Below are positions 3,113-27,479 of a DNA stretch of 34,649 bases, one piece after another; position 1 is the first letter of the stretch; each line of letters begins with the position of its first letter. The position numbers and the translations under genes were made by a program. The notes beneath the pieces are model-generated. The model was not told where the DNA came from. It saw only the letters and a program-made list of their open reading frames with translations, and ran no database searches. This stretch comes from a virus: positions 1 to 34,649 of the IMG/VR virus record IMGVR_UViG_3300029950_000051; one strand, written 5' to 3'.

Positions 3113-3508
3113 TCAGAGGTTTACCGGCATATCCGGCCAGATAATGTTTTCCGGAAATCCTGCCTGCTGCTCAATAGCCAGCAGACGTTCACGCGCGTCA
3201 GCCATTGCGGCCTTTTCTTCATCAGTTAACGCACCCCAGCGAATCGGATTCACGGCAACCTGATCAATTGCATAAACCCGGTGGTCACGCTCTGCCAACA
3301 CTTCGGACATAATTTCTTCCTGACTTTTAATATAAGGCGCGACATCACCATAAGCCCCCGATACCGCAGCCTGAAAAATTAAAATTCCGTGTGATTCCGT
3401 ATCGGTTGGTGAAGCGGTGAACGGAATCCAGCCATGAACAGGGTGGTTTACCTCAATATCAATACTGCCATTAGCGTTGTATTTTGGGTTTTTACATAAA
3501 GCATTCAT
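3113..3508 (-). CDS. Tail fibre assembly chaperone
   Basis: A 131-residue protein directly downstream of the tail fibre gene, overlapping its stop by one base. The C-terminal third (an Arg/Glu helix ending near AGFPENIIWPDMPVNL) is characteristic of tail fibre assembly proteins, which chaperone trimerisation of the fibre C-terminus. The N-terminal part (NPKYNANGSIDIEVNHP) is beta-rich. Gene order fibre then chaperone supports the call. Chaperone and fibre usually coevolve or swap together, so this pair probably sets host range. Confidence 0.75.
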   Translation of the reverse strand: MNALCKNPKYNANGSIDIEVNHPVHGWIPFTASPTDTESHGILIFQAAVSGAYGDVAPYIKSQEEIMSEVLAERDHRVYAIDQVAVNPIRWGALTDEEKAAMADARERLLAIEQQAGFPENIIWPDMPVNL

Positions 3509-20835: not shown

Positions 20836-21051
20836 ATGTCATCAATCAAGGTACGGTTCGGCAGTCGCCTGCGTCAGTTGCGCATAGCGCGCAACATCAC
20901 ACAGCTGCAATTGGCAGAGGCTTGCGGGGTGTCGGTTGAATCCATCAGTAATATCGAACGCGGCAAGCATGGTCCGCGTTTAGAGCTGATTGCCGACCTG
21001 GCCACCGCCCTTTCAATTCCCATTTCTGAGCTTTTCCGGTTCGATAACTGA
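20836..21051 (+). CDS. XRE-family transcription regulator
   Basis: A 71-residue protein that is essentially one HTH_3 domain: RFGSRLRQLRIARNITQLQL then AEACGVSVESISNIERGKHG (helix 2-3, near residues 23-45) and ELIADLATALSIPISELF. Such minimal XRE proteins act as Cro-like repressors or TA antitoxins. It lies downstream of palindromes that may be its operator, and upstream of a second XRE gene. It is not the lysogeny repressor by position, since that gene sits beside int. Confidence 0.8.
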   Translation: MSSIKVRFGSRLRQLRIARNITQLQLAEACGVSVESISNIERGKHGPRLELIADLATALSIPISELFRFDN

Positions 21052-21158: not shown

Positions 21159-21458
21159 ATGGTCACTGGTCGTGAGTGGCGGGCCATCAGGGAAGAGATA
21201 CTGCGTATGAGTCAACAGCAACTGGCAGACAAAATAGGCACCAGCAGGCAGCGGGTCAGCCGTGTAGAACGCGATCTGGCTGAATACAGCTTCAGCCAGT
21301 TAAAAGCCCTGCAAGATATTGCGGGGCTTCCTCTGGCCTTTCTGCTCAACCTTGAAGATGACCCACCGCCCTGGATAAACGCCTATATGGCGCTGGATAA
21401 AGCCAAGCGCCGTCAGCTCGACGGCTTCATTCTTGCCGCCATAAAATTACTTAAATAA
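21159..21458 (+). CDS. XRE-family regulator of accessory module
   Basis: A 99-residue HTH protein: EWRAIREEILRMSQQQLADK then IGTSRQRVSRVERDLAEYSF, followed by a helical C-terminal tail. The start ATG at 21159 has no strong upstream SD. The gap before it contains GTCTA half sites (near 21081-21086 and 21116-21121) that resemble the perfect operators after the gene, so autoregulation is possible. It is probably the regulator of the HicA-like pair that follows, though the spacing (67 bp with two operators) indicates those genes have their own promoter. Confidence 0.7.
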   Translation: MVTGREWRAIREEILRMSQQQLADKIGTSRQRVSRVERDLAEYSFSQLKALQDIAGLPLAFLLNLEDDPPPWINAYMALDKAKRRQLDGFILAAIKLLK

Positions 21459-22753: not shown

Positions 22754-23329
22754 TTATACACCCAGCCGCTTCAGCAGCTTGTCCACCGCTTCCGCCGCTT
22801 CGCCGTTCTTCGCTTCGCTGGCGGTACAACGGCTGGCAATATCAAACACCTGGCGCAGTTCCAGGTGTGAACCCTGATTGTTCTGGTTTTGCACAGCCTC
22901 AACCACCAGGCCAACACGCTGGCCGGTAAATTCCTGCGCCACCTGCACCTGCTGGCCCTGATCGTTAACACCTACGCCCCAGCTGAACCCCGGCAGGCCC
23001 ATCAGGTACAGCATGGCGTTAATAAAATTCGCACCGAATACCGGCGTTTGTCCATCGGCCTGCAGATACGTCAGCGACACCGTGCCGCGTTTTTCTTCAT
23101 CATCCATAAAGCGCACCAGCACAGCATGGCTGCCGGTTTCGTTGCGGCGGTATTCAACGCGGGTAATGGTGGCGTGCACTTCGCCGGTTTCGGTAATAAA
23201 CGGCATATCCCCCGCTTTTTCTGCGCTGGCTTCATCGAGTACAAAGGCATAACCCGCCGGCCTCATGGCTGCAGGATTCGGGGCGCTGTTGTTCATGGCG
23301 GTCTGGTGTTGGTTGAATGGCTGTTGCAT
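22754..23329 (-). CDS. Possible ssDNA-binding protein (DUF669-like)
   Basis: A 191-residue protein with a beta-rich core (TGEVHATITRVEYRRNETGS, HAVLVRFMDDEEKRGTVSLTYLQ) and a second half (QEFTGQRVGLVVEAVQNQNNQGS, LELRQVFD). The pattern resembles DUF669 phage proteins, which are predicted OB-fold ssDNA-binding proteins; similarity is not strong. N-terminus is Gln/Asn-rich and disordered. In an operon with the rolling-circle initiator, an SSB role in replication is plausible. Confidence in the family is low. Confidence 0.45.
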   Translation of the reverse strand: MQQPFNQHQTAMNNSAPNPAAMRPAGYAFVLDEASAEKAGDMPFITETGEVHATITRVEYRRNETGSHAVLVRFMDDEEKRGTVSLTYLQADGQTPVFGANFINAMLYLMGLPGFSWGVGVNDQGQQVQVAQEFTGQRVGLVVEAVQNQNNQGSHLELRQVFDIASRCTASEAKNGEAAEAVDKLLKRLGV

Positions 23330-23350: not shown

Positions 23351-23830
23351 TTAATCGTTTGTAATAAATTCAAGATGCTTTTTTTTCAGGAACCCGCTTT
23401 TAATGGCAGCCTCTATCATCCTGATCAATTCCGTTGTCTTACTTTCTGTCAGTGTCAGATATTCAAGCCGGGCATCTTCAAGCTTTCTGCGCAGCTTCCA
23501 GTTATCGTGCTTAAGGCATTCAATTCGCTTAATGGCAGCAGCGGCCACCTGTATGGCTTGCTGCTGATCTGTTCCTTCCGGTGTTATGTTTACCAGCTTT
23601 GCCAGCTGCATCATTTCTTGGTTCATCATGGTCAACTCGTCCTCTGCAACTGCATAAATAAAACGGCCTTGCCCATCACATTCGGCCCGCGCTTTTTTAA
23701 TCGCTTTGACTCCTGTCATGGCAATAACCCGGACGGCAAAACCGCCCTGGCTGAATACCCAAAACGCCACCGGGCAAGGTGCACGCTTTGGCATATATTC
23801 CGCGAACATATCCAGCTGGTTCTCAGTCAT
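23351..23830 (-). CDS. Coiled-coil early protein, unknown
   Basis: A 159-residue protein with a globular N-terminus (TENQLDMFAEYMPKR, VAFWVFSQGGFAVRV) and a long helical region (residues near 85-150: RIECLKHDNWKLRRKLEDAR). The start overlaps the stop of the membrane-protein gene as ATGA. MTENQLDMFAEY resembles a peptide motif (QLDMF) of sliding-clamp binding type; this suggests a link to host polymerase clamp, but this is speculation. No enzyme motif. Confidence 0.5.
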   Translation of the reverse strand: MTENQLDMFAEYMPKRAPCPVAFWVFSQGGFAVRVIAMTGVKAIKKARAECDGQGRFIYAVAEDELTMMNQEMMQLAKLVNITPEGTDQQQAIQVAAAAIKRIECLKHDNWKLRRKLEDARLEYLTLTESKTTELIRMIEAAIKSGFLKKKHLEFITND

Positions 23831-24813
23831 ACCGCCGCAACCATCCAGCCTTTACCACTGGCCTTTTGTTGAATAACGCCAGCAGCCAGCAACTGCTGAA
23901 TCTGGTCGGTATAACTTCCGTAGTTCACGCCTGCCGCTTTCGCTTCGCGCACGGTTGGCAGTTGCCCGGTTGTGCTGATCTGATCAGCAAGCCAGTTGCC
24001 TGCTGTTTGTTCACCGGGGGCAACGCTGTTGCCTTGTTTCTGTTCGCCGTTCTGTTTTTTGTTCTGTTCTGGCTGTTCTGTTTGTTTGTTTTCGGCTGTT
24101 TTGTTCTGTGCTTTTTGTTCTGTTTTCTGTTCGCTGTTCTGGCGGCTGTTCTGTTCTTTTCTCTGTTCATTCAGCAACAGCACCGCCACGATTTGCAGCA
24201 GGTCAGCCACCACAGCAACAGCAGCCCACGCCAGCCAGCGCCAGCCGCCCAGGCGATCACCGCTTACCGTAGCCGCACTGGTCGCGGCGGCGGGCATGGT
24301 GGCCAGCTCCTGCTGCAGCGCCTGTACTTCGGTTTCAATCGCACGGCTTTCGCGCAGCAATTCGCCAGCGTTCCAGCTGTTGCCTGCACGTTCTGCTTCA
24401 GCGGCGGTGCGTTTCAGTTGCTCGGCTGTTTTTTGTTTTCCCGCAATCAGTGCGGCCGTGTTCTGGTATGCGCTGCTGTTCTGTTTTTCAGCGGTCGCCT
24501 GTACCTGATATGCGGATTCAAAATAGGCAATGGTGCTGGCCACACTCAGCAGCAATAACGGCACAACCAGCAGCCAGCAAGCTGCGGCCAGCGGTTTATT
24601 TTTCCGTCTGCTTTGCTGCTTTGCAGCGGCGGCCATTAACGGTTTGGCAATAACCAGCGCCAGTGCAAACGCTACGGCCAGCGCTGTGTCTGCTCCATTA
24701 CCGGCAAAGCTGGTAAACAGTGCAATTTCCCGCGCTGCAGTTACTGCTAATAGCGCCAGAAGCATGGCTGCCAGCGGTGCTTTATTCAGGGTATTTATCA
24801 GGGTGTTTTTCAT
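23827..24813 (-). CDS. Membrane protein with Gln/Asn/Lys-rich tail
   Basis: A 328-residue protein. Hydrophobic segments near residues 13-30, 43-65 and 78-97, then a coiled region (residues 105-170), another membrane helix (near 190-215), and then a 60-residue stretch made almost only of Gln, Asn, Glu, Lys and Thr (residues near 217-275). It ends with a small wHTH-like domain (LPTVREAKAAGVNYGSYTDQ, ending KASGKGWMVAAV). The combination is unusual in a replication operon. A membrane anchor or sensor with a DNA- or protein-binding tail is possible. The low-complexity region is encoded by repeated TTCTGTT-like units. Confidence 0.6.
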   Translation of the reverse strand: MKNTLINTLNKAPLAAMLLALLAVTAAREIALFTSFAGNGADTALAVAFALALVIAKPLMAAAAKQQSRRKNKPLAAACWLLVVPLLLLSVASTIAYFESAYQVQATAEKQNSSAYQNTAALIAGKQKTAEQLKRTAAEAERAGNSWNAGELLRESRAIETEVQALQQELATMPAAATSAATVSGDRLGGWRWLAWAAVAVVADLLQIVAVLLLNEQRKEQNSRQNSEQKTEQKAQNKTAENKQTEQPEQNKKQNGEQKQGNSVAPGEQTAGNWLADQISTTGQLPTVREAKAAGVNYGSYTDQIQQLLAAGVIQQKASGKGWMVAAV

Positions 24814-24836
24814 AGCATTGCCTCCATGCGGCGTTG

Positions 24837-25130
24837 TCAGTTAATCAGCGGTAAAAGTTCAGTACGCCAGATGGCCACCTCTTTCGGGGCATCAAATAAA
24901 ATGCCCACCTGGCGCCCGACGATCCGCACAATTTTTATCCGGCAGTTATCGGTCAGTTGGTGTTCTTCACCAACGGCCATACCGTGCAAGCGGATGTTTT
25001 CTTTTCCCGGTTCCACAATATCCAGCGTGGCGCGGGGGCTGTGCCATGGCCCGTACACGTCCAGCGCATTCAGTCTGATGCTGTTGTTAACCTCTACCGA
25101 TTCGCCCGCCCGGCGCGCTAAAACTAACAT
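24837..25130 (-). CDS. Double-length CsrA-like RNA-binding protein
   Basis: A 97-residue protein with two CsrA-like halves. Residues 1-50: MLVLARRAGESVEV, then NNSIRLNALDVYGPW and ATLDIVEPGKENIRLHG, like CsrA beta1-beta5. Residues 51-97: GEEHQLTDNCRIKIVRIVG, then RQVGILFDAPKEVAIWRTEL, very close to CsrA. CsrA is normally about 61 residues and forms a dimer with two RNA sites. A single chain with two halves would be a pseudo-dimer with two different faces; the second half has no copy of the first beta strand. Alternatively an insertion between beta strands, as in Pseudomonas RsmN. The ATG overlaps the upstream stop by 7 bp. It probably controls translation of host or phage mRNA. Confidence 0.72.
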   Translation of the reverse strand: MLVLARRAGESVEVNNSIRLNALDVYGPWHSPRATLDIVEPGKENIRLHGMAVGEEHQLTDNCRIKIVRIVGRQVGILFDAPKEVAIWRTELLPLIN

Positions 25131-25444
25131 GCTGCTTTCTCCATTTTTTGGCCGGCAGCCGCTTCATAAGCGGCAACCAGTGGCAATAATTCGTTGTATT
25201 CCTGGCGCTGGGTATTACGCAGCCGTTCCAGATAGGCGCGTTTAACTGATGATTCAAAACCGGCGACCTTCTCCGCCCAGGCATCACGGATAAAACCGCG
25301 CATTTTGGTGCGCAGCGGCAGCCGCATATTGGCCAGCATTTCGTTACGGCGTCCGGCATCCAGCGTTAACAGGTAACGGGCATACTGTTTTTGCTTTTCG
25401 GTCTGTTCGTATTCATGCAGTTCTTTTTTATTGCTCGCTTTCAT
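25124..25444 (-). CDS. Small helical protein, unknown
   Basis: A 106-residue basic helical protein, starting MKASNKKELHEYEQTEKQKQ. Start at 25444 chosen because AGGAAAGGA lies just upstream; a longer frame is open to 25462. No known domain. It lies between the initiator and the CsrA-like gene, overlapping the latter by 7 bp, so the two are probably translated together. Function unknown. Confidence 0.5.
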   Translation of the reverse strand: MKASNKKELHEYEQTEKQKQYARYLLTLDAGRRNEMLANMRLPLRTKMRGFIRDAWAEKVAGFESSVKRAYLERLRNTQRQEYNELLPLVAAYEAAAGQKMEKAAC

Positions 25445-25454
25445 CGTCCTTTCC

Positions 25455-27479
25455 TCATGCAATTTGCCAGTTTTCGATCATTTCCAGTTGCTGCGGTGGC
25501 GGTGAACTTCGTTCAACCGGCTGGCCAGTACAGTTATTCACACCAGTCCAAGGCGGCTGCGCCGCTTTAAAATCAAAACCATCGGCATTCGCCGCATCAC
25601 GTTCGGCCTGTCGGGCTTCTGCTCGGATTAGATCGCGGGCAGCCTTTTCAGCCTTGCGGCGCTGGCGCACGGCAAAGGCTTCATCTTTGCTGGCGTTTAC
25701 GCGAAACCATGACCGCCATTGGCTGATTTTCTCAATGGCATTGCCCGCGACTTCGGCAATCACACCAATGATCTTTTCTCCGGTTTCGCCATAGGCGTTA
25801 ATGGCTGGCCGCGTCAGTTCGTTCTGGAACTTCTCGCCGCTGATTTCGTCCAGGTATTCCATAGTTTCGGTGACTGTCTTCAGGATTTTTTTCAGGCTTA
25901 ACCCGTTCTCGTCGTAGAACTCGCAATAGGTCTTCCACGCAGCACTTGCGCTTTCCTGAGCGGTGGCATCCAACTGCATAATGAATTCCCGCAGCGGTTC
26001 TTCTTCCGGTGTCCATTCTTCTTCTGGTAATCGAGCAAGGCGGCGAAGTTGACGCCAGACCGTTACCGATGGCCCACCCACTTGCTGAAACTGACGTATG
26101 CCATTGCGGCTGCTCCAGGCGACAATATCTTTTGCCGACGCTTTAGCGTCTTTGCCATACAAGTCCTTATCGACGTGTTCACCATCGATATTTTTGGCGA
26201 TGTATTTGGCGATATAACCGGCAGCGGAATATTCCTTGCCGGTTTTCGGATTAATTCCGGTTTTGATTTTTTCGGCTTTAAAGCGCACATCCGCTTTTGC
26301 ATTCAGCAATTCGTGATGGTCTTCTTTTTCAGCGTATCCGCGCAGCGCCTTTGTTACCTCGTCAGCCTGATCCGGACGGACAAACAGCAGTAAATGCCAG
26401 TGAGGCGTGCCGTCGTGATGAGGCTCTGCAACACGGAATCCAAAAAAATCCCACTTCTCCGGTTTATTCCGGGTAATCCGCCCGGCTAACGTGCGAAAGC
26501 GCGCCCAAAGCGAACACATATACTGTTGCCCGTCTCGTGGGCTGGCCCCTCTGAACTTAGGATTGCGGCCACAGCCGCGAGTTGAATGGTATTTTGACGG
26601 TGTAGTAATGGTGTAAAACCAGCCTTCATAACCGTTGGCTTTTGCGTATTCTTCAAACCCGGCAATCCGCACCATCAATTCAGCGCGGCGTACCTCCGGA
26701 TTGGCAACGCTCAATTCAGATAGATCAGCCAGCGTGTACTGCTCGCCGTCTTCATTCTCCATCAGGGTGTGTTCCAGCATGTCTAAATTCATCTGCTGGC
26801 GGCGCTGCCACTCACGGCGACCAACCGGGCTGCAATAAGCGTTTTTATTTACAACAACCTGATTCAGCTCACGGCTTATTTTCTCTATTCTCTGCGCCTG
26901 TGCCCGGCGCATTTTTCTGCGCCACCAGTTTTCATCCTGGCAACGCTTTAATAATCCGGTAACCAGCGGCAGCAAAGCGCCTTCTTTCGCTTCGGCCTTG
27001 GTCATTTCTTCAGCTTCTTTCGGCGTTAAATAACCGCTATTTTTTTCAGCAGAAGCCATTATCGCGCTCTGTGTTTCCAGTGCGATCAAATACCCGTTTA
27101 AACTTTGGTAATCTGAAAATTCATGGTGTTCAAAAACACTGATAACCCGATGTACAGCATCAGGGGTGGTCATTCTGTCTGGCCAGCCAGTCAGTTTTAA
27201 AATGCAGGATCGAGCCCTTACCGTGATGTAGTCTTCTAAATATTGGTCATGGGTCTGATGCACCAGAAAATCACCAATCTTGAACTGCTTGCGCAGCTCA
27301 TCCAGACGCTGATTGGCATTGCGGATTCCGTTCGACTTTGCGCGGCTAACAACGCGTTTCCAGTCATTCAGCAACGGGCGGGAAAATTCGCCAAACCGTT
27401 CTGTAACCTCAGCCGCCTGACGTTCCCAGTAAGGAGTCTTCTTCATTGCCGGTGCGCCGACCAATGCAAACTCTGACAT
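25455..27479 (-). CDS. A: Rolling-circle replication initiator A
   Basis: A 674-residue P2 gpA-type HUH endonuclease. The metal motif is H360-W361-H362 (GTPHWHLLLFVRP), and the two catalytic tyrosines are Y422 and Y426 in GYIAKYIAKNID, the same spacing (YxxxY) as P2 Y450/Y454. The N-terminal domain (residues 1-200) is helical; the C-terminal domain (450-674) is helical and basic. It nicks at the origin, which in P2 lies within A; I could not locate the nick site here. The ATG of the gene and the stop of the zinc-ribbon gene overlap by one base. Confidence 0.92.
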   Translation of the reverse strand: MSEFALVGAPAMKKTPYWERQAAEVTERFGEFSRPLLNDWKRVVSRAKSNGIRNANQRLDELRKQFKIGDFLVHQTHDQYLEDYITVRARSCILKLTGWPDRMTTPDAVHRVISVFEHHEFSDYQSLNGYLIALETQSAIMASAEKNSGYLTPKEAEEMTKAEAKEGALLPLVTGLLKRCQDENWWRRKMRRAQAQRIEKISRELNQVVVNKNAYCSPVGRREWQRRQQMNLDMLEHTLMENEDGEQYTLADLSELSVANPEVRRAELMVRIAGFEEYAKANGYEGWFYTITTPSKYHSTRGCGRNPKFRGASPRDGQQYMCSLWARFRTLAGRITRNKPEKWDFFGFRVAEPHHDGTPHWHLLLFVRPDQADEVTKALRGYAEKEDHHELLNAKADVRFKAEKIKTGINPKTGKEYSAAGYIAKYIAKNIDGEHVDKDLYGKDAKASAKDIVAWSSRNGIRQFQQVGGPSVTVWRQLRRLARLPEEEWTPEEEPLREFIMQLDATAQESASAAWKTYCEFYDENGLSLKKILKTVTETMEYLDEISGEKFQNELTRPAINAYGETGEKIIGVIAEVAGNAIEKISQWRSWFRVNASKDEAFAVRQRRKAEKAARDLIRAEARQAERDAANADGFDFKAAQPPWTGVNNCTGQPVERSSPPPQQLEMIENWQIA

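Follow-up and report, generated by a model that had tools for sequence, protein, structure and literature searches.

A phage gene for a two-halved, single-chain CsrA-like protein with one predicted RNA face

What kind of regulator is encoded when a phage gene carries two CsrA-like halves in one chain? An ordinary CsrA dimer has ten strands; each sheet combines beta2-4 from one subunit with beta1 and beta5 from its partner, each RNA face is a parallel pair of beta1 and beta5 from opposing subunits, and L4 and R44 have roles in RNA contact on this beta1/beta5 face (PMC7652899). The symmetry of the dimer is thought to be important, in that two faces bridge two mRNA sites and allow titration by multi-site sponge RNAs; one-site CsrA has so far been studied as an engineered construct. 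Here, we analyze a gene in a stretch of 34,649 nucleotides, referred to below as the window (IMG/VR virus record IMGVR_UViG_3300029950_000051), whose product had been predicted to be a single-chain pseudo-dimer with two functional, nonidentical RNA faces. Does the chain indeed contain two CsrA units, does it fold as such, and does it keep both faces?

The gene and its parts lie in the window as follows (AF2, AlphaFold2):
24837-25130, minus strand: tandem (two-halved) csrA-like gene, 97 amino acids, ATG start; PF02599 in two stretches, 55.8 bits
25014-25130, minus strand: half 1, residues 1-39; AF2 strands beta1 2-7, beta2 11-14, beta3 18-26, beta4 33-39; Pfam positions 1-26
25110-25127, minus strand: beta1 of half 1 (LVLARR), the first of two strands in the putatively kept RNA face; alignments show L4 and R6 to be invariant
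24975-24995, minus strand: predicted shared junction strand, residues 46-52 (IRLHGMA); AF2 strand, beta1-like in L045, L079, and L082
24843-24971, minus strand: half 2, residues 54-96; AF2 strands beta2' 56-60, beta3' 63-71, beta4' 74-80, beta5' 87-89, helix 90-96; Pfam positions 8-48
24864-24878, minus strand: beta5' region of half 2 (VAIWR), second strand of the putatively kept RNA face; R89 equivalent to CsrA R44; A81, P82, R89, and E91 invariant

The whole protein matches the Pfam CsrA profile (PF02599) at 55.8 bits (E 4.5e-15) in two stretches. Taken alone, half 2 (residues 44-97) matches profile positions 8-48 at 37.5 bits (E 2.4e-9), above the curated cut-off of 27 bits, and half 1 (residues 1-50) matches positions 1-26 at 21.7 bits (E 2e-4), below it. 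The expectation that each half would be recognized by the CsrA profile thus holds for both, with the reservation that half 1 by itself stays under the curated cut-off. Profile positions 8-26 are therefore present twice in the chain, so that it is a duplication rather than an insertion, and the original prediction of two CsrA-like halves is borne out. Could the gene nonetheless encode a normal CsrA interrupted by a long insertion, as the same prediction allowed? That CsrA tolerates an inserted element is shown by RsmN (PMC3791407); however, this RsmN-like reading is refuted by the duplicated profile positions, and the overt duplications in a clade of relatives (L045, L079, and L082), where the halves are openly alike (half-against-half p 0.002), as well as the lack of an internal helix in the AF2 model, leave it extremely improbable. 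Within the window protein itself, the half-against-half comparison is not significant (p 0.12).

By its sequence, the tandem gene is a member of the CsrA family as Pfam defines it yet stands outside the NCBIfam CsrA equivalogs, scoring 50.2 bits against cut-offs of 70.1 and 73 (TIGR00202 and NF002469). Nor does the protein conform to the definition of CsrA as one unit per chain (beta1-5 plus a helix, about 61 residues), since it has 97 residues with nine strands and one helix. A dN/dS of 0.30 against a 93% identical relative indicates purifying selection, and chance is excluded by the E-values and the full-length relatives together with this selection. The host genome (G000) has two ordinary csrA genes elsewhere.

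Does one chain of this kind fold as a pseudo-dimer? The AF2 model of a single chain, based on a 12-row alignment consisting of tandem proteins only, from the window or from loci found by search, has a pLDDT of 90.6 and a pTM of 0.79, in agreement with the pseudo-dimer fold that had been proposed; an earlier 3-row model (pLDDT 78) has the same eight strands. The predicted order is beta1-4, one shared strand, beta2'-5', and then the helix, and the parts absent from the chain are half 1's own beta5 and helix. The second half had been described as CsrA-like and lacking strand beta1. Its likeness to CsrA stands, but in the AF2 model residues 46-52 form a strand whose register relative to the GE turn is that of beta1, and the junction strand of L045, L079, and L082 still reads as beta1 (LLVVTRKVGE). 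We suggest from the model that residues 46-52 would do double duty, taking the place of beta5 in half 1 and of beta1 in half 2. In one relative (L075), the same residues match the profile under either reading, half 1 extending to position 47 and half 2 starting from position 3.

Structural comparison gives a similar picture. A Foldseek search against viral models returned 13 proteins at E<1e-3 with matches spanning the entire chain (TMq 0.66-0.87), against an E of 0.19 for a single-domain phage CsrA; the two-halved fold is thus a recurrent one in phage proteins. Against the PDB, single CsrA/RsmE chains were found with a probability of 0.99 but an E of 0.2, because those chains contain only one half.

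If the fold is that of a dimer in one chain, are both RNA faces retained? The RNA-contact residues of CsrA, L4 on beta1 and R44 on beta5, occur once in the window protein, across the halves (L4 and R6 from half 1; R89, equivalent to R44, from half 2). L4 and R6 and the equivalents of R44 and E46 are invariant in all 16 sequences compared, eight of which were found by a DNA pattern demanding L4, R6, and R44 and were thus selected for those residues. The conservation therefore rests on the other eight families, found by similarity with queries that also contained beta1, in which the invariant columns are M1, L2, L4, R6, A81, P82, R89, and E91. On the second face of the window protein, the equivalents of L4, R6, and R7 are H49, M51, and A52, so that the junction strand is without the CsrA RNA-contact residues; this face is built on a single strand instead of the necessary two, and its arginines are mostly lost among the relatives, the R6 position being Arg or Lys only in the L045/L079/L082 clade and in L075 and L076. 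The chain thus appears to keep exactly the face that joins its two ends, and the prediction of two functional, nonidentical faces is not borne out. Might the second face instead have been rebuilt for a different, phage-specific RNA? It does vary freely between families while the first is fixed, and Arg or Lys is kept on the junction strand in the five relatives just named. However, a single strand replaces two there, the contact positions in the window protein are those given above, and the alignments reveal no alternative conserved basic patch; we regard such a second specificity as improbable.

The genomic setting supports the proposed place of the gene in the early operon near the replication initiator, with one gene between the tandem csrA and a P2-type gpA. 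Its neighbors in the minus-strand operon, which also includes a 159-aa gene between the 328-aa and SSB-like genes, are as follows:
25455-27479, minus strand: P2-type replication initiator gpA (PF05840, E 1.7e-80; phrog_91, E 9.9e-140)
25124-25462, minus strand: 112-aa gene directly upstream, function not assigned; overlaps the csrA start by 7 nt; relative in L028 (29%, E 1e-3)
23827-24813, minus strand: 328-aa gene downstream, function not assigned; orthologue in L028 (32%, E 6e-45)
22754-23329, minus strand: single-strand DNA-binding protein (SSB) of the same early operon (phrog_743, E 8.7e-19)

The gene thus belongs to the gpA operon of a P2-like phage, with gpA next but one upstream, and the same order is found in two further loci, L028 and L004. 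L028 is a P2-like prophage in a genome of another genus of the same family (G351) and shares with the window the order int, repressor, gpA, small gene, tandem csrA, 328-aa gene, and SSB, even though the two prophages have diverged (identity of 57% for the integrase, 44% for gpA, 24% for SSB, and 55-58% for terminase); its tandem csrA is a remote orthologue (29%, E 1e-8). This conserved order in a diverged prophage implies that the tandem csrA is a lasting part of the phage lineage. Two IMG/VR contigs, L004 and L005, encode a 93% identical tandem CsrA protein; their gpA allele differs from that of the window (48% protein identity), whereas in the csrA block their DNA is about 95% identical to that of the window. 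The swap of the gpA allele is a mosaic exchange, spanning 25424-27473 of the window and 3585-5707 of L004, with flanks, including the tandem csrA block, of 90-96% DNA identity. Between the packaging genes and the early operon of the window lie two small genes resembling helix-turn-helix regulators (20836-21051 and 21159-21458, plus strand).

Could the gene be a decaying csrA remnant without function? Its low identity to ordinary CsrA and its roughly 50 bits against NCBIfam cut-offs of 70-73 would be compatible with decay. On the other hand, the purifying selection noted above, the recurrence of the architecture in many mobile elements, and the same place and key residues in L028, despite its diverged gpA, make such a remnant very improbable.

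How widespread is the architecture? The same anatomy is found in about 16 sequence families from phages, prophages, and Xanthomonas and Stenotrophomonas plasmids; 16 nonredundant sequences have a median identity of 29%, two PF02599 stretches are present in all 10 relatives tested, and the annotation of relatives is only "carbon storage regulator" or none. Among 392 genomes of the order, a protein search identified full-length two-halved relatives in L007/L024, L010, L013, L014, and L015/L020, besides that of G000. Other tandem types occur on the Xanthomonas and Stenotrophomonas plasmids, annotated as "carbon storage regulator," and in Pseudomonas phage vsMR, where the gene is unannotated. Because the score of an HMM of tandem proteins did not separate tandem from single CsrA, we used a DNA architecture pattern (MLxLxR, a gap of 65-75 codons, and AP..V.V.R.E). 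It matched 6 and 8 IMG/VR contigs and 5 of 385 genomes, and 18 of these 19 matches encode tandem CsrAs; the remaining one (L081) is a chance match with no tandem CsrA. A reversed-pattern control in genomes gave no match, and an ATGCT form of the pattern matched none of 398 genomes of the phylum. The sole match in a scan of genome contigs with the two closest sequences (L057, Pelolinea submarina) was rejected as a chance 44-residue match to a KH-type stretch. Viral scans with the L014 and vsMR proteins as queries and a plasmid search with the vsMR protein gave no match.

The relatives, too, lie in modules for early functions, replication, or repression, with gpA and SSB in L028, a helicase in L026, a primase in L075, a RuvC-like gene in L071, and a CI-like repressor with an integrase in L031. 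In L031 (7950-9056, minus strand) and L079 (3278-4372, minus strand), the tandem csrA follows a same-strand gene for a repressor-type regulator, CI-like by PHROGs in L031, where an integrase is near, and an HTH-like 214-aa gene in L079; a role of the tandem csrA in the lysis-lysogeny decision is possible in this group. On plasmids, the tandem csrA (L052 5001-5351, L051 5001-5348, and L053 2965-3351) always has an HU gene upstream, with one gene in between in L051, and an acyltransferase gene downstream. Some elements carry two such genes. In genome G035, a second, more divergent CsrA-like two-part protein (MLTVTRRVGESIKIG...APEHIKIVRDE) is encoded about 7 kb from the tandem csrA (L027 15027-15413, minus strand), and the 3.5-kb contig L029 has two CsrA-like genes (996-1364 and 3125-3343, minus strand), one tandem and one resembling a lone second half; neither has the usual beta1 arginines at its junction.

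How would such a protein work? We propose that it is probably a natural single-chain CsrA pseudo-dimer with one GGA site, capable neither of bridging nor of mixing with host CsrA subunits. The architecture, that is, the duplication and the predicted fold, is well supported, and the analysis also shows that one face is conserved and that the gene has a stable place in early or replication modules; the RNA binding, monomeric state, targets, and effect of the tandem CsrA are what we infer. In this model, a CsrA copy truncated before beta5 (beta1-beta4) would have been fused to a second copy (beta2-beta5 plus the helix) via one shared strand. Strand beta1 would pair with beta5' across the halves, so that the face of beta1 from half 1 and beta5 from half 2 would be complete, with its contacts kept, and the opposite face would be one strand short. 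The chain would be monomeric, with one (A)NGGA element bound per chain; a ACAUGGAUGU hairpin RNA would sit on the beta1/beta5' face only, two sites on one RNA could not be bridged by a single chain, and subunit exchange with the host's own CsrA would be impossible. Is it possible for two chains to meet at the unfilled edge? Nine strands leave one sheet a strand short with an exposed edge, judging from the AF2 model and the dimer anatomy (PMC7652899), and a homodimer formed there would have four sheets and a pair of RNA faces, so that it would work as an ordinary dimer does, only with larger subunits. The confident monomer model, in which the helix is present, argues against such an assembly, which we consider quite unlikely.

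Returning to the monomeric one-site protein, we can ask what it would do in the cell. When one site of a CsrA dimer is inactivated by engineering, repression of glgC is incomplete (Mercante 2009, as described in PMC7652899), and a local, weaker, or competing regulator is therefore expected. The tandem CsrA would most likely regulate translation locally, as a one-site protein, through GGA motifs in the Shine-Dalgarno sequences of a small number of early phage RNAs, of which its own may be one; it would also compete with host CsrA for GGA sites. Competition could even be its main purpose: as an antagonist of host CsrA, it would occupy GGA sites without bridging or full repression, or soak up RNA, and thereby relieve CsrA-controlled host genes during infection. 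The incomplete repression of glgC and the two ordinary csrA genes of the host are in line with this proposal. However, the early-operon place fits a phage target equally well, and a stoichiometric single competitor would have to be abundant; we hold antagonism to be unlikely, if well worth keeping in mind.

For the one-site local regulator, two candidate sites in the operon can be named:
25139-25144, minus strand: AUGGAG, an ANGGAN motif, in the tandem csrA's own Shine-Dalgarno; a possible, weak autoregulatory site, from sequence
24820-24829, minus strand: GC-AUGGAG-GC, an ANGGAN motif closed by a stem of 2 bp, in the next gene's Shine-Dalgarno; a weak candidate target, kept in L004

The segment AATGGAGAAAGCAG before the tandem csrA start (window 25131-25145), which comprises the upstream gene's end and the Shine-Dalgarno with its ANGGAN motif, is also kept just upstream of position 8001 in L028, where csrA is only 29% identical. 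The scan of phage leaders for GGA motifs that was proposed with the original prediction gave no significant enrichment of GGA hairpins (p 0.11, 47 leaders). No sponge RNA was found in the host with the CsrB (RF00018) and PrrB_RsmZ (RF00166) models.

To generalize further, could single-chain one-site CsrA pseudo-dimers form a widespread and so far undescribed class of regulators in mobile elements, acting on GGA sites and insulated from the host CsrA/sponge-RNA network, given that neither subunit swapping nor site bridging would be available to them? We advance this idea tentatively, as a conjecture that might prove right or wrong. What is new here is the single-chain two-halved architecture within the known CsrA family. 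A natural, recurrent single-chain one-site version, if true, would make it possible to test directly what purpose the second face serves. It would suggest how phages and plasmids may run private CsrA-type control beside that of the host, and it would offer a clear case of dimer-to-monomer evolution via duplication and strand sharing, hidden under the annotation "carbon storage regulator." Surveys of csrA genes in phages and plasmids exist (PMC7366521 and PMC8450108). We found no description of a two-halved CsrA in the open-access literature searched, including passages of these surveys and of PMC11879866.

How, then, does the tandem CsrA compare with known systems? Like the phage-carried CsrA family regulators of Pseudomonas phage F116 and Escherichia phage PTXU04 (gp28), it is encoded by a phage; unlike it, those proteins are ordinary single-domain chains that must dimerize. 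PTXU04 gp28 was considered as a tandem CsrA and rejected, being a single-domain gene of 201 bp; its knock-down leads to smaller plaques (PMC11879866). RsmN/RsmF of Pseudomonas aeruginosa is likewise a rearranged CsrA relative in which an RNA face is kept. However, RsmN/RsmF has about 71 amino acids, an inserted helix, and no C-terminal helix, and it is a homodimer with two sites, whereas the tandem CsrA has a duplicated core, no internal helix, and a predicted C-terminal helix at residues 90-96. With the CsrA/RsmA/RsmE homodimers, the tandem protein shares the fold elements, the motifs MLxLxRR...GE and AP..V.V.R.E, and the RNA-contact residues of one face; it differs from them in having one chain of 97 amino acids rather than two of about 61, nine strands and one helix rather than ten and two, and one conserved RNA face rather than two identical ones. 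Finally, the CsrA dimers engineered to have one site, by R44A in a single subunit (Mercante 2009), resemble the proposed protein in having one working RNA face and the size of CsrA and in that bridging is not expected; they are two-chain laboratory constructs, whereas the tandem CsrA is a natural single chain, recurrent in mobile elements.
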